Part shown: positions 52,260 to 60,828 of the stretch, piece after piece
Layout: each line of letters starts with the position of its first letter
Position numbering within the stretch: position 1 is the first letter of the stretch
Assembly: GCF_008195825.1 (NCBI RefSeq)
Contig: NZ_CP043329.1
Location: 372,001 to 436,000, forward strand
DNA length: 64,000 nucleotides
Origin: Pedobacter aquae
Lineage (GTDB): Bacteria; Bacteroidota; Bacteroidia; Sphingobacteriales; Sphingobacteriaceae
Reading direction: 5' to 3'
Made by a program: the position numbers and the translations under genes
The notes under the pieces: generated by a model
Seen by the model: the letters and a program-made list of their open reading frames with translations, nothing else
Database searches by the model: none
What the model was told of the DNA's origin: nothing

Positions 52260-52418
52260 TTATGAGTCTTCAGGCTTTATTTTGACAATTTTATCGTTAC
52301 GTAAAACTACCAAAACACTGTTTTTAGTTTTCTTAAATTCTAAAAGTTTTTCGTATGTTTTTTCCAGTCCTTTAAGAATTTTGTTTTTTTCCTCTATTTG
52401 AATTTCAATTGTTGTCAT
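52260..52418 (-). CDS. 52-residue partner of the zeta-like kinase
   Basis: This short ORF starts at ATG 52418 inside the end of the kinase gene (14-base overlap, shifted frame), so translation is probably coupled. The protein begins MTTIEIQIEEKNKILKGLEK, an amphipathic charged helix, and ends with a strand-like segment (NSVLVVLRNDKIVKIKPEDS). The overlap and helix-strand pattern suggest a real co-expressed partner, possibly an antitoxin or regulator. I recognise no family. Confidence 0.6.
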   Translation of the reverse strand: MTTIEIQIEEKNKILKGLEKTYEKLLEFKKTKNSVLVVLRNDKIVKIKPEDS

Positions 52419-52988
52419 AGTAATTTTTTAAAAGGTTAAATTTTTTTTGATTGATGATATTTAGAACTCCATCTATTTGTTTATCTGCCAAGAGTTCATG
52501 TTTTCCTTCTGAATTATCAAAAATTAGAGCTCCGTCAACGATTGGAAGATAAATGTCAAACAAATTCTTAATTCCTCTGAAGTATCTTCTTTCAATTATT
52601 GCAGGCTCAATATTGTGGCCACCTTCTGAAACTCTTATTTTTACACGTTCTTTAGCTAAGTCAACGTTTTGAAGCCAAAAAAACAATAATGAAACGCTAT
52701 ACCTCTTTTCTTTTGCTTCGATGATTTTACCTTTATAGCTCTTAGTCGATAAAGTCGTTTCGAATGCAAAGTTTTCATTTTCAGATAGCAATTCATTAAT
52801 TCTATTAAGCATGATTCGACCTGCTTCAAACGAAACTTTTTCAGGTTGAAAAGGAGATAATCCTTTTGCAATTTCATCAGCATTGACAAATTCTTTACAA
52901 TTTAAAATTTCAGGCAAAATAGTGAATGATGCAGTTGTTTTACCTGCCCATTACAGCCCGCTATTATGTAAAGCTTTTTATTAATCAT
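52405..52988 (-). CDS. zeta toxin-like P-loop kinase (frameshifted)
   Basis: From ATG 52988 the protein begins MINKKLYIIAGCNG; adding one C to the CCC at 52947-52949 (plus strand) gives GCNGAGKTTAS, a Walker A motif, and joins the long frame. The 194-residue product has NADEIAKGLSPF (substrate Asp region), FAFETTLSTKSYKGKI, and a lid with RVSEGGHNIEPAIIERRYFRG. This is the zeta-toxin/AAA-type small kinase family that phosphorylates small molecules such as UDP-N-acetylglucosamine. The classical epsilon antitoxin is absent upstream; a 52-residue ORF overlaps its 3' end instead. Confidence 0.8.
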
Positions 52989-53392: not shown

Positions 53393-53716
53393 TTAGTCAA
53401 CAAATGTTTCTCTAATGACACGTTTACATTCGAGTATTTCCTTTTCTGTAAGCGAACCAAACTTTTTTACAATACGAATTTTATCTATTGTTCTTATTTG
53501 ATCAAATACAATCCAACCTTCTTGACCATTGTGTTTAACTTTTACTCTGGTTGGGTAGTTTCTGCTTGTAGAAGTCATTGGTGCAATAACAACAGTTCTT
53601 AGATTGTCATTAATTTCATTTGGTGAGATAATTACACAAGGTCGTGTTTTTTGTATTTCACTACCCAAAGTTGGGTCGAGATTAACCAAAACTATTTGGT
53701 ACTGTTTTACTTCCAT
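53393..53716 (-). CDS. mazF: MazF/PemK family endoribonuclease toxin
   Basis: This 107-residue toxin cleaves mRNA. It begins MEVKQYQIVLVNLDPTLGSE and continues with KTRPCVIISPNEIN, the conserved basic/Thr active-site loop, and VVIAPMTSTSRNYPTRV, the second strand pair of the PemK fold. Its start overlaps the mazE stop by 10 bases. The pair forms a type II toxin-antitoxin module in the accessory island. Confidence 0.92.
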   Translation of the reverse strand: MEVKQYQIVLVNLDPTLGSEIQKTRPCVIISPNEINDNLRTVVIAPMTSTSRNYPTRVKVKHNGQEGWIVFDQIRTIDKIRIVKKFGSLTEKEILECKRVIRETFVD

Positions 53717-53952
53717 TCGTCGAAGTTTTCATCTTCAAAAACATCATTCATTAGGAGCTGGTCATCACCATTTTCATGCATTTTTTGGAATGCTTTATTC
53801 CAGCCTTTACGAGGTTCAGAAATTGGGCGCAAAATGATTTGTCCTTTTTCAAGGATTAATTCTATTTTATCAGTGATGTTATACCTCTCTAAAATGGTTT
53901 TGGTTAATCTAAGTCCCTTTGAATTTCCTATTTTAATGATTGAAACTTCCAT
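53707..53952 (-). CDS. mazE: MazE/AbrB-type antitoxin
   Basis: The 81-residue antitoxin has an N-terminal AbrB/SpoVT swapped-hairpin domain (MEVSIIKIGNSKGLRLTKTI) that binds DNA and dimerises. Its acidic C-terminal tail (NGDDQLLMNDVFEDENFDEWK region) would wrap the toxin. It precedes mazF and overlaps it, the canonical order. Its promoter contains repeated TTACAAA-like motifs that could serve as its operator. Confidence 0.9.
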   Translation of the reverse strand: MEVSIIKIGNSKGLRLTKTILERYNITDKIELILEKGQIILRPISEPRKGWNKAFQKMHENGDDQLLMNDVFEDENFDEWK

Positions 53953-54059: not shown

Positions 54060-54422
54060 TCTGAGATGGTGCAACTAGTCTATGTTTTGTGTAAGGGGTA
54101 CAGACGGACTGGAAGAAACCGGAACGTAAAAGGAAAAACCTGATACGATTAGGAGTAGATGCCGACCATGCTTATGCATGGAGCAGGACAAGAAAAGGAG
54201 GATGGCGAATAGCCCAAAGCCCAATCCTTAATACGACCATAACTATTAAACGGTTAAAGCAAAAAGGCTACATACCCATGCTAGAGATTTATTCAAAACT
54301 CAACCCATCAGTTTACGAACCGCCGTATACGAGAACCGTACAGCCTGTCCCGATTTTTCATCGGGATACGGTGGTGTGAGAGGCGCACTCTGTCAGGTTT
54401 CTGGCAGAGCCGTCTACTCGAT
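54060..54422 (+). mobile_element. 3' end of a group II intron (5'-truncated)
   Basis: The segment holds the last part of an intron-encoded reverse transcriptase, then domain V-like sequence (GAACCGCCGTATACGAGAAC ... ACGGTGGTGTGAGAGG) and a 3' end CCGTCTACTCGAT near 54422, as in Bacteroidota group II introns. Everything 5' (domains I-III and most of the RT) is missing, as after incomplete target-primed reverse transcription. A small hairpin is inserted in the domain V loop (54342-54367). The left boundary is approximate. Confidence 0.72.
54095..54379 (+). pseudogene. group II intron reverse transcriptase/maturase, C-terminal fragment
   Basis: The frame is open from 54095 to TGA at 54377-54379 and reads KNLIRLGVDADHAYAWSRT, GGWRIAQSPILNTTI and YEPPYTRTV, the conserved C-terminal part of group II intron-encoded proteins. 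It has no start codon and lacks the RT domains. Its last codons coincide with intron domain V, as is usual in this group. The insertion adds PVPIFHRD before the end. Confidence 0.75.
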
Positions 54423-54436
54423 TATGTGCATACCCT

Positions 54437-54835
54437 TTATTTCGCTTTATCTTTCCTGTGAAATCTATATCCTAAACCAATTGACCAAACCCATTCGTCT
54501 GTGCTGTCGAAATGGAAAAATGGTGCAATTAAAGCGAAGTTTTTATAGTCAATTCGAGGGGCAACTCCAAGTTTAGCACCTGTCTTTCCGTTCTTTATGT
54601 AGAAAGATGGTAAAGCACCAACACCAAGTTTCCAATTGTTATTCAGTCTTAACATTAGGCTTGGACCACCTACATTAAATGCGTAAAAGTCTTTACCTAC
54701 TGCAAATCCTAACATACCTTCTAAACCAATATCCCATTTTGGATTTTCTTCTATTTTTTTCTCTTGTTCTTGGGCATAAGTTAATGTTGAAATTAGAAAT
54801 GCTATGCCTAATATTATCGTTCTTTTAAAATTCAT
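54437..54835 (-). CDS. hypothetical outer-membrane beta-barrel protein
   Basis: The 132-residue protein has a signal peptide ending near STLTYAQ, then about five amphipathic beta strands with Gly turns and a final aromatic-rich strand (WSIGLGYRFH), a short barrel-like pattern. I recognise no specific family. It lies 10 bases after the superoxide dismutase gene on the same strand, so they are probably co-transcribed, and its end touches the intron remnant. Confidence 0.65.
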   Translation of the reverse strand: MNFKRTIILGIAFLISTLTYAQEQEKKIEENPKWDIGLEGMLGFAVGKDFYAFNVGGPSLMLRLNNNWKLGVGALPSFYIKNGKTGAKLGVAPRIDYKNFALIAPFFHFDSTDEWVWSIGLGYRFHRKDKAK

Positions 54836-54845
54836 TCTTTCTTGT

Positions 54846-55571
54846 TTATTTCGTAAGTTTTAGGGCATTTTCTAATCTGTAAGCTGAATTGTCCCAATTG
54901 ATAATGTTAAAAAGATTGTCCACAAAGTCAGCTCTTTTGTTTTTGTATTTGAGGTAGTAAGAATGTTCCCAAACGTCAATTACGAGCAACGGAATAACTC
55001 CCCACTGCGTCAATTTTTCGTGGTTTTCACATTGTAAAATTGTCAACTTGTCGGTGTAAGGTTGATAGCCTAAAATTCCCCAACCATTTCCGTCAACGTC
55101 TTTGGAAGTCTTGGCGAGATACATTTTCAGTTTGTCGTAACTGCCAAAATCTTTTTCAATACGTTTGAGCAAGTCGCCTTTTGGGTCGCTCTTTTTGTTT
55201 GTGAGGTTAGTCCAAAATATGGAATGAAGTATATGCGATGAAAGATGAAAAGCCAATTTCTTTGTCCAAAAGTCAACGGTTTCAAGGTTATTGTCGTCCA
55301 ATGCCTTTCTAATCATCTGCTGGTCTTTGTTTGCCCCTTTTACTGCTCCACCGTGATGAAAGGTATAATGCAAATGCAAAGTTTCTTCGTCCATATATGG
55401 CTCCAAATGATTATTTGTATAAGCCAAAGGTTGATGAATAAAGTTGCCGTCCTTGTCAACCAACTTGTCAATAGTGTTCTCGGTCAGGTTTTGGGCAAAT
55501 GCCGAAGCGGTCGGAACAAGTGTCGCTCCGCCAAGTATAAGTCCTGTTTTTAGAAAATCTTTTCTGTCCAT
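54846..55571 (-). CDS. superoxide dismutase (Fe/Mn family), with export signal
   Basis: The 241-residue protein has a Tat-like signal (MDRKDFLKTGLILGGATLVP, with RK in place of RR) ending near ASAFAQ. Metal ligands appear as HLHYTFHH (first His), ILHSIFWTNL (second His) and DVWEHSYYL (Asp and His). At the position of the conserved gateway Tyr (HHxxY) it has Ala (HHGGA), and a His stands near the usual second-sphere Gln (ENHEK). It would remove superoxide in the periplasm. Its base composition looks richer in G+C than that of the neighbours, which suits its place in an accessory island. Confidence 0.85.
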   Translation of the reverse strand: MDRKDFLKTGLILGGATLVPTASAFAQNLTENTIDKLVDKDGNFIHQPLAYTNNHLEPYMDEETLHLHYTFHHGGAVKGANKDQQMIRKALDDNNLETVDFWTKKLAFHLSSHILHSIFWTNLTNKKSDPKGDLLKRIEKDFGSYDKLKMYLAKTSKDVDGNGWGILGYQPYTDKLTILQCENHEKLTQWGVIPLLVIDVWEHSYYLKYKNKRADFVDNLFNIINWDNSAYRLENALKLTK

Positions 55572-55641
55572 TTTTTATATGTTTAATGTTTGCACTGTCG
55601 TCTTTTAGGGTTGCACATAACTTATATATATGTATAGTTTT

Positions 55642-55681
55642 ACTTCCGTAATACACCCAATATTGGGTGTATTACGGAAGT
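55642..55681. repeat. 40-bp perfect palindrome
   Basis: Positions 55642-55661 (ACTTCCGTAATACACCCAAT) are exactly complementary to 55662-55681 with no spacer. It is followed by T5 on the plus strand and lies 71 bases upstream of the superoxide dismutase start. It could be an operator, a terminator or a mobile-element end. Confidence 0.9.
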
Positions 55682-55849
55682 TTTTATTTCTTTTATTTGA
55701 TAGCTTCATTCTTTTAATAAATCGTAAAAATGACTTTTTATATTTTATTTTAATAAACAAATAGCTGTTATAGCATAAGGCATATTCCCTCTAAATTCAG
55801 GATTTTATGAAAGTTAAATGTTGATTTTCTCTTCGGCACTATAATCAAA

Positions 55850-55990
55850 AGGTAGATTTAACTTTAGCGATAAAGATATAGAATTAATACAAAAATTCAC
55901 GAAACTATAGCAAAATTATATACCCTAAACCACCAACTTTTATTAATAAACTGGCTTGGTAGCGGTATTAATTTTCATTTGCTTTGGTGA
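55850..55990. repeat. diverged direct repeat, copy 1
   Basis: The first 37 bases (55850-55886) are identical to 56464-56500, and similarity continues for about 100 more bases with gaps, through a GGCTTGGTAGCGGTAT segment that corresponds to GGGGCGGCAGCGGTATC in copy 2. It is a non-coding dispersed-repeat type. Confidence 0.7.
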
Positions 55991-56463: not shown

Positions 56464-56620
56464 AGGTAGATTTAACTTTAGCGATAAAGATATAGAATTA
56501 AATCAAAAATTCACAAAACTGTAAGAACAAGAAATTACCCCAAACCCACCAAACCTGTGTAAACTAAACCGGGGCGGCAGCGGTATCTTTTTGCCTTCGG
56601 TAATTTTTTGTGATATGATT
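56464..56620. repeat. diverged direct repeat, copy 2
   Basis: It begins with the 37 bases shared with copy 1 and goes on through CCCAAACCCACCAAACC and GGGGCGGCAGCGGTATC to about 56620. Together with copy 1 it brackets the small broken gene at 56029-56278. Between the copies, 56290-56460 shows no gene. Confidence 0.7.
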
Positions 56621-59380: not shown

Positions 59381-60828
59381 ATGCAAGAAACCACCATGAA
59401 AAGAGAGCTAGGGCTGCTAGACTCTACAATGATAGTAGCCGGCTCTATGATAGGCTCAGGGATATTTTTAGTAAGTTCTGATATTGCCAGACAAGTTGGT
59501 TCTCCGGGTATTATCCTTTTAATTTGGCTTATTACAGGTATTATTACCTTGATAGCAGCTTTAAGTTACGGGGAATTGGCTGGTATGATGCCGCAAGCAG
59601 GTGGTCAATATGTTTATTTAAAAGAAGCTTATAATCCCATGATAGGTTTTCTCTTCGGGTGGACGGTTTTTACGGTTATTCAAACCGGAATTATAGCAGC
59701 CGTAGCCATTGCGTTTGCCAAATATACGGCAGAGATTATTCCCTTTTTCGATCAGAAAAATATCTTATTCAGTTTAGGAGGCTTTAGTTTAAATCATACA
59801 CAATTGCTAGCCATTGTCATGATATGCTTTTTAACTTTTATAAACCTACAAGGAGTAAAAAGTGCAAAGTTGGTACAAACAATTTTTACCATTGCTAAGC
59901 TTTTAGCTTTGTTAGGGCTCATTATAGCAGGTATTTATGTTGGTTTAAATAGTGAAGCTTTCTTTTCTAATTTGGATAATTTTTGGGCTCCTTACCAAAC
60001 AAAAGTGAACGAGGATGGAACAATTTCTACCGAATTGCTTGGTGGTGTTTTACTTTTTGGTGCTATGGGCGCTGCTATGGTAGGTTCTTTATTTTCATCA
60101 GATACTTGGAATAACATCACCTATATAGCTGGTGAAGTAAAAATCCTGAAAAGAATATTCCGCTGAGTTTACTGTTTGGAACTTTAATCGTAACCATATT
60201 ATATATCTTGGCTAATGTGGCTTATTTGATGCTATTGCCTGTAAGTGGTTCGCCAGATGGGGCTACGGTTTTAGAGCGTGGAATCATGTTTGCCTCACAA
60301 GATAGGGTAGGTACAGCTGCGGCTTCGGTCATTTTTGGAAGTGCAGCAGCAGCTATCATGGCCTTATTAATTATGGTATCTACTTTTGGTTGCAATAATG
60401 GTTTAATACTTTCTGGTGCTAGATTATATTATGCTATGGCTCAAGATGGGGTATTTTTCAAAAGAGCAGCAACTTTAAATAAAAAGGATGTACCGGGTTT
60501 TGCCCTTATTCTACAAGCTTTTTGGGCAGCTTTATTATGTTTATCAGGTACTTATGGTCAACTGTTAGATTATAGCGTTTTCTCTGCTTTACTATTTTAT
60601 ATTGTTACCATTGCTGGGATATTTATTTTAAGGATAAAAAGACCAGATTGGAAAAGACCTTACAAAGCTTTTGGTTATCCTTTTTTACCTGCGCTATATA
60701 TACTTTTAGCTTCTGCTATTTGTATTGATTTATTGATTTACAAACCAGATACCTGCGGCTGGGGTTTAGGAATAGTTGTTTTAGGAATTCCAGTTTATTA
60801 TGTTTGGAAATATTTTGATAAAAAATAA
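59381..60828 (+). CDS. APC family amino acid permease (frameshifted)
   Basis: The first 262 residues contain VAGSMIGSGIFLVSSDIARQ and ALSYGELAGMMPQAGGQYVY, the LAT/APA-like APC type. The frame stops after YIAGEVK. Adding one A to the A5 run at 60139-60143 gives NPKKNIPLSLLFGT and joins the rest (LSGARLYYAMAQDGVFF), 482 residues with 12 membrane helices. It would exchange or import amino acids. It differs from the two cationic-type permeases elsewhere in the window. Confidence 0.86.

Follow-up and report, generated by a model that had tools for sequence, protein, structure and literature searches.

The closest described counterparts of the locus examined here are the canonical integrons (IntI, attI, attC), which share with it a tyrosine recombinase whose attI site lies next to its gene, a G|TTRRRY crossover, cassettes that end in a hairpin-forming attC with R'' complementary to R', an imperfect attC stem conserved in structure rather than in sequence, and arrays of one orientation whose cassettes differ between strains at one platform. 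In canonical integrons the integrase gene usually points in the opposite direction to the cassettes. The domain specific to IntI is reportedly necessary, a point for which Messier and Roy are cited from 2001.

Passages of two papers hold this domain to be necessary and use it as a search filter (PMC2426708, PMC9668308); in a passage of the second, on archaeal integrons, the additional domain separates IntI from other recombinases (PMC9668308), and the I2 helix is said in part of a further text to dock extrahelical bases (PMC7790495). As for Bacteroidota, one passage counts them among the phyla with integrons (PMC8618304) and another reports intI genes in the Bacteroidetes/Chlorobi group (PMC2426708). 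Passages of the IntegronFinder 2.0 paper use the term CALIN for attC clusters without an integrase, credit Bacteroidetes with one complete integron, that of Salinibacter ruber, and state that earlier surveys of Bacteroidetes had met integrases without cassettes only (PMC9024848). Across titles and abstract openings of the open-access literature, with subscription journals and preprints outside the scope of the search, we found no description of the system reported below. We propose, with a probability of roughly 0.86, that a palindrome in Pedobacter aquae is the upstream part of an attI-like platform, and that one tyrosine recombinase inserts cassettes in trans at ten such platforms.

A palindrome beside a superoxide dismutase gene recurs in the genome

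The window, by which we mean the whole 64,000-nucleotide stretch of P. aquae DNA that was analysed, carries the sequence ACTTCCGTAATACACCCAATATTGGGTGTATTACGGAAGT at 55642–55681, and we confirmed the perfect 40-bp palindrome, two halves of 20 without a spacer, that an initial annotation had seen there. Searched with up to three mismatches, the 20-nt half matched only its own two arms within the window, and none of 100 dinucleotide shuffles gave a match. The RNA fold of an 86-nt stretch around the palindrome had an energy close to -31 kcal/mol (z scores of -6.9 for one strand and -9.4 for the other), and the T-rich tract TTTTATTTCTTTTATTT, which had likewise been pointed out, follows the palindrome on the plus strand. 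The start codon of the superoxide dismutase (SOD) gene is at 55571 on the minus strand and the palindrome stands 71 bases before it, as annotated. The neighbourhood is laid out as follows.

55642–55681, no strand: perfect 40-bp palindrome, attI-like platform of type A (pattern match; in 44 distinct platforms, pooled, palindromes are centred at the same distance from the crossover)
55621–55641, minus: attI-like core AAAACTATACATATATATAAG, which runs up to the crossover G|TT (comparison of copies; identity with the second cassette copy starts at the G)
55682–55968, minus: leader upstream of the palindrome, common to the orthologous P. puniceum platform (blastn of 55618–55968, 87% identity)
54422–55620, minus: inserted gene cassette of 1199 nt (matched at 100% identity by G000:C1:704429-705627 in the integrase array)
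54846–55571, minus: Fe/Mn superoxide dismutase, cassette gene 1 (PF02777, E 1e-32; PF00081, E 4.7e-14)
54437–54835, minus: 132-aa open reading frame, cassette gene 2
54422–54435, minus: R''-type box GGGTATGCACATAA (imperfect inverted match to the cassette start TTATGTGCAACCC)
54080–54421, minus: element interrupting the cassette attC right after R''TAA, its far end provisional (follows the R'' of two other cassettes too)

With up to three mismatches the half-site pattern occurred at five places in the 3.85-Mb genome, and a looser whole-palindrome pattern found both arms retained at three of the five, so the palindrome is not a single-copy operator. The window copy, with 20 of 20 positions paired, was the most perfect among the copies examined. 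The conserved unit is longer than the palindrome and extends to AACTTATATATATGTATAGTTTT: when the five places here were compared with five in the relative P. puniceum, it comprised the palindrome plus the core on the minus strand, and the DNA beyond it was different at all ten copies, yet started with GTT and resembled the GTTRRRY start of a cassette. The predicted crossover is G55621|T55620 on the minus strand, with the palindrome 21 nt away. The exact arm pattern is narrow, present in 2 of 41 genomes searched (this genome counted) and in one contig of the genome_contigs collection; the exact palindrome was absent from the viral_contigs collection.

To the right of the platform we also noticed a sequence of about 90 bp (aggtagatttaactttagcgataaagatatag... 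to ...gcggtat) that occurs twice, at 55866–55960 and at about 56466–56570 of the window, and of which the P. puniceum locus (L017) has at least the start. Farther along, the adjacent reading frames at 59381–60166 and 60208–60828 resemble, on inspection, the two parts of a single amino-acid permease gene that may have been frameshifted.

The superoxide dismutase cassette and its apparent exchange

The sequence from 55620 to 54422 was 100% identical over 1199 nt to G000:C1:704429-705627, 277 kb away, where the second copy sits between two attC matches inside the integrase array. The identity begins one base before the crossover predicted from other loci and ends at the last A of R''. Judged by sequence, the SOD gene and the small ORF are an inserted gene cassette, which appears to have moved as a unit. 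Searches with the product of the 132-aa ORF found nothing in Pfam (E ≤ 0.001) or in NCBIfam (E ≤ 0.01). In 201 genomes of the family, with two candidates scored in each, nothing else approached the cassette in both length and identity; stretches of 228 to 578 bases that match at 73–74% in three genomes (G061, G119, G185) are presumably related SOD genes.

The cassette start TTATGTGCAACCC is partnered by the imperfect inverted GGGTATGCACATAA at 54435–54422, and an R'/R'' arrangement of this kind is the known layout of integron cassettes. Similar R''/R' partners close some of the remaining inserts, and behind two of these partners come an evident hairpin stem and another GTT; within the 1.5 kb examined for each, such partners were found for only part of the ten cassettes. 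The element that follows the R'' box (..TAA|TCGAGTA) is present in three different cassettes (window 54080–54421, L040 near 6475, and the cassette end in L017) and therefore seems to target attC. It bears some resemblance to the end of a group IIC-attC intron; a search of Rfam, the group IIC-attC intron end included, returned no match. The element and its far side are common to P. aquae and P. puniceum, and the preceding cassette is different. Near the cassette there are also a MazF/PemK-like toxin gene, accompanied by a small ORF as its partner, and a zeta-toxin-like ORF that falls slightly short of the Pfam cutoff (window 53393–53952, 52405–52917).

Three platforms are common to P. puniceum, with similar flanks and a different cassette in each. 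At the orthologue of the window site the flanks are 87 to 90% identical beside the platform and another cassette is present, and the NhaA platform and the 1769-kb platform likewise hold another cassette in P. puniceum. These comparisons bear on the suggestion, made in the initial annotation and in keeping with the 71-base distance to the SOD start codon, that the palindrome could be an operator through which a redox or metal regulator controls sod. Other copies stand beside unrelated genes; the identical SOD cassette elsewhere is preceded by an attC and has no palindrome in front; and in P. puniceum the same platform bears a different cassette, so that what is conserved stays with the platform and not ahead of sod genes. 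We rejected the operator, which we regard as having next to no chance of being correct: the palindrome is a feature of the platform rather than of the gene.

attC sites follow the platforms

The genome has ten platforms with two types of palindrome, five of type A and five of type B, and the integrase adjoins one of type B, at 676 kb. All ten palindromes have an identical centre relative to G|TT; the copy at 3028 kb pairs weakly (score 3.7).

A strict search for attC sites with an exact 7-bp stem returned 6 candidates, where each shuffle gave 0 to 2, and overlooked the majority of the sites found later; a looser scan gave 20 candidates, compared with 2 and 0 in two shuffles. Three of these lacked the common pattern and were dropped by eye, and the remaining 17 were aligned. 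Their consensus stem showed changes on both sides at 16 of 18 pairs, a covariation that is partly built in because the sites had been picked by stem pairing. A covariance model of the 17 sites matched at least 35 places in the genome at E ≤ 1 (150 of 1942 first-look candidates were scored), and 33 of the 35 lay within 30 kb downstream of a platform in the orientation of that platform, a region that makes up 3.9% of both strands. Ten of the matches were training sites, all of which had come from around platforms; among the other 25, 23 were downstream of a platform. The two matches off platforms were a partial one at 2643634 and a marginal one at 2485489. Type B platforms were followed by 12 matches at 676 kb (integrase), 8 at 854 kb, 7 at 998 kb, 2 at 1130 kb and none at 3028 kb, and type A platforms by one each at 1326, 1402, 1451 and 1769 kb and none at 427 kb, the window.

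Across 93 distinct attC sites, aligned to our own model, which favours an outcome of A.C mismatches without bulges, one unpaired stem column was A in 93/93 with C opposite in 83/93, and a second was A in 62/93 with C opposite in 83/93. The columns for protruding bases were gaps in 92/93 and 89/93. On the other strand the A.C mismatch reads as a G.T pair.

In the family-wide search (201 genomes, up to 16 candidates scored in each), matches to the model at E ≤ 1e-6 were present in all 61 genomes with a relative of the integrase at E ≤ 1e-60 and in 49 of the 140 without one (Fisher 2e-21). These 49 may hold diverged integrases or may have lost them. One genome (G147) has at least 16 attC matches with no integrase at E ≤ 1e-60, and may have another integrase. 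At L046, 6356–12122, two attC sites enclose about 5.8 kb of DNA whose genes by eye look metal-handling, with heavy-metal-associated domains and a multicopper oxidase-like product.

In P. puniceum there are five platforms of type A and one or more of type B, together with one integrase (E ≤ 1e-60) whose gene directly adjoins a type A platform and points in the cassette direction. Platforms without an integrase also occur in G157 (two on one contig) and G129 (on two contigs). The palindromes of the G129 ones nearly match that of the genome's own integrase-adjacent platform; the two in G157 have a different palindrome sequence from the integrase-adjacent platform of that genome. On G157:C28 (L152) platforms with the same palindrome stand in tandem, at 1157 and 6850, as if one array stood in or behind another. 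A search for further platforms in 16 loci, hand-picked around attC clusters and including the integrase loci of G003 and G012, found six sites in five loci, one of them the known G003 integrase platform, compared with an average of 0.67 in shuffles; at the threshold used, the other 11 loci gave none, and among them the known G012 platform was missed too.

Since the identical SOD cassette occurs at a platform of type A and again within an array of type B, the sequences suggest that one integrase uses both types, although the cassette may have reached its second site by a route other than a shared integrase. The presence of several copies per genome, and of a leader sequence common to several platform copies, would also suit a small non-autonomous transposable repeat (MITE- or REP-like) made up of palindrome, core and leader and standing near variable genes by chance. 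Variation sets in at a single, fixed G|TT position and the ends are those of cassettes, however, attC matches lie downstream in the same orientation, and elsewhere in the phylum integrase genes directly adjoin such sites, all of which makes a transposable repeat very improbable. The scar of a mobile element had been the nearest of the guesses in the initial annotation: what was called a scar rather resembles a receiving site for mobile gene cassettes.

The integrase

One close homologue of the integrase is present in the genome, at G000:C1:676387-677430, and is 77% identical to the P. puniceum integrase. Three other matches in this genome are weak (29–34% identity) and by our reading include the cell's own Xer-like recombinases. 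The best curated match of the P. puniceum integrase is the NCBIfam model NF040815 (228.8 bits against a cutoff of 220), whereas its score with TIGR02249, the integron integrase model, was 205.8 bits, below the cutoff of 265. NF040815 describes XerA-type recombinases under the name 'site-specific tyrosine recombinase/integron integrase', which implies that some annotators have noticed the likeness. The integrase here differs from those recombinases in being tied to attI-like platforms and attC cassette arrays and in an N-terminal segment of about 70 residues outside the model, which spans residues 74–337.

In an alignment with one IntI1 (L112), a block of about 41 residues was missing from the integrase. 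Between the KGxKDR and HxLRH motifs, 59 of 61 spans measured 58 or 59 residues, against 100 in IntI1 (62 loci scanned, two of them IMG/VR contigs; the 61 spans came from 59 loci, and 3 had none). The two exceptional spans, of 64 and 66, were a second span in a plasmid stretch (L113), which has an annotated IS91-associated recombinase at that place, and one in the distant L111; two other recombinases of the P. aquae genome have spacings of 66 and 64. By this comparison the IntI-specific additional domain (I2 helix) is missing from the integrase.

Relatives at E ≤ 1e-60 occurred in 61 of 201 family genomes and in 98 of 395 Bacteroidota genomes sampled. Among viral contigs there were two relatives at 35–37% identity, and these IMG/VR contigs (L145 and L146, with integrases 37% and 35% identical) also have matches to the attC model. 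The Chryseobacterium oryzae plasmid NZ_CP094530.1 (L113, 12001–13740) has a 62%-identical integrase, a palindrome, a core and one VOC-family cassette, so a platform can be plasmid-borne; on this stretch the attC model gave a best E of 0.09, which is unconvincing.

The palindrome across Bacteroidota

A script that looked for an AT-rich core pattern and left the palindrome unscored, with patterns written after many of these sequences were known, found the crossover (core plus G|TT[AG]) in 51 of 54 integrase loci. Behind the GTT, many cassette starts depart from RRRY, GTTACCG being one example. From these we took the 44 platforms that are less than 80% identical to each other; L105–L107, L109–L111, L145 and L146 were omitted from the statistics as truncated, distant or without the motif. 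The 44 integrase-adjacent platforms have a palindrome of varying sequence centred 40.5 nt before the crossover. Pairing at this centre reached 444 of 880 base cells, compared with at most 295 at shifted centres and, when right arms were swapped between genomes, a mean of 340 and a maximum of 390 (none of 2000 swaps reached 444), figures that are optimistic because related genomes are not independent. Pairing above the swapped-arm controls means that the palindrome is kept while its sequence changes. The left arm also resembles its own core more than the cores of others (5.93 against 4.36; 0 of 1001 permutations), as in L119, where TCATACATAT stands beside TCATACATATATAC.

Individual platforms varied, with 1 to 18 of 20 positions paired among the 44. 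In a scan of single platforms, 26 of 42 scored beat shuffles at p ≤ 0.05, the best of several crossover candidates being allowed. The distant integrase loci L106, L107 and L110 gave palindrome p values of 0.58 to 0.94 in the same scan, and L109 and L111 had no core by the pattern used.

A transcription terminator or insulator, lying outside the recombination site and separating the integrase gene or leader from the cassettes, would fit the strong hairpin, the T-rich tract on the plus strand of the window copy, and the position of the palindrome at integrase-bearing platforms, after the stop codon of the integrase and before the first cassette. Yet a T tract (at least six T in 8 nt) follows the palindrome at 2 of the 44 platforms in the cassette direction and at 6 of 44 in the opposite one, the palindrome keeps a fixed distance from the crossover, the arms resemble the core in direct orientation, and the palindrome is kept at platforms without an integrase. 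Termination, another proposal of the initial annotation, is thus not supported as a general role, although the window copy may act in this way, and we consider this reading unlikely, if less so than a transposable repeat. A role in binding the integrase is favoured because of the fixed distance, the resemblance of arm and core, and the presence of the palindrome at platforms without an integrase; the arms most likely form a paired integrase-binding site.

Discussion

The comparisons above document the anatomy of the platform, the cassette boundaries, the exact duplicate, the replacement of cassettes between relatives and the fixed distance from palindrome to crossover. On the mechanism that we propose from them, the palindrome would be the conserved upstream part of the attI-like platform of an integron-like cassette-capture system in Bacteroidota. 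The tyrosine recombinase encoded at G000:C1:676387-677430 would join cassettes through their attC to the G|TTRRRY point 21 nt past the palindrome, acting in trans on ten dispersed platforms, and the SOD cassette would be one of those so delivered. The palindrome arms would supply two inverted integrase-binding sites, and the adjacent core would contain the motif once more in direct orientation. Cassettes would pass through circular intermediates, recombination would use folded single-stranded attC, and one integrase would probably serve both palindrome types.

Several observations weigh against this reading. In this genome the platform beside the integrase is of type B, and none of the five type A sites has more than one attC match. 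The attC of the window cassette is itself broken by the element, which P. puniceum has with another cassette. Lastly, the G157 platforms without an integrase do not have the palindrome sequence of the integrase-adjacent one.

The system resembles CALIN in having cassettes with attC far from the integrase gene; in contrast to CALIN, each dispersed cluster here opens with an attI-like site of its own, and the genome does encode an integrase at another place. It departs from canonical integrons in an integrase without the IntI-specific domain and encoded in the same direction as the cassettes, in attC stems with opposed mismatches and almost no protruding base, in an attI with a palindrome 21 nt before the crossover, and in ten attI-like copies against one close integrase. 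Since the domain is missing and the attC have A.C mismatches with almost no protruding base, we do not file the system as a canonical integron. The joint absence of the I2 helix and of consistent attC bulges fits a different mode of attC recognition. We think it probable, with somewhat less assurance than for the platform itself, that Bacteroidota harbour a separate class of integron, in which the integrase lacks the I2 helix, attC lacks extrahelical bases, and one integrase serves many palindrome-marked platforms in trans, with arms that change together with the core.

If this is true, the capture of cassettes through hairpin attC sites would not need the protein innovation thought to have enabled integrons, and a widespread system without I2 and bulges would escape domain-based filters. 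Such a system, having neither I2 nor extrahelical bases, would let the role of I2 be tested by comparison. One integrase feeding ten loci would, moreover, change the view of how cassette capture reshapes a chromosome.
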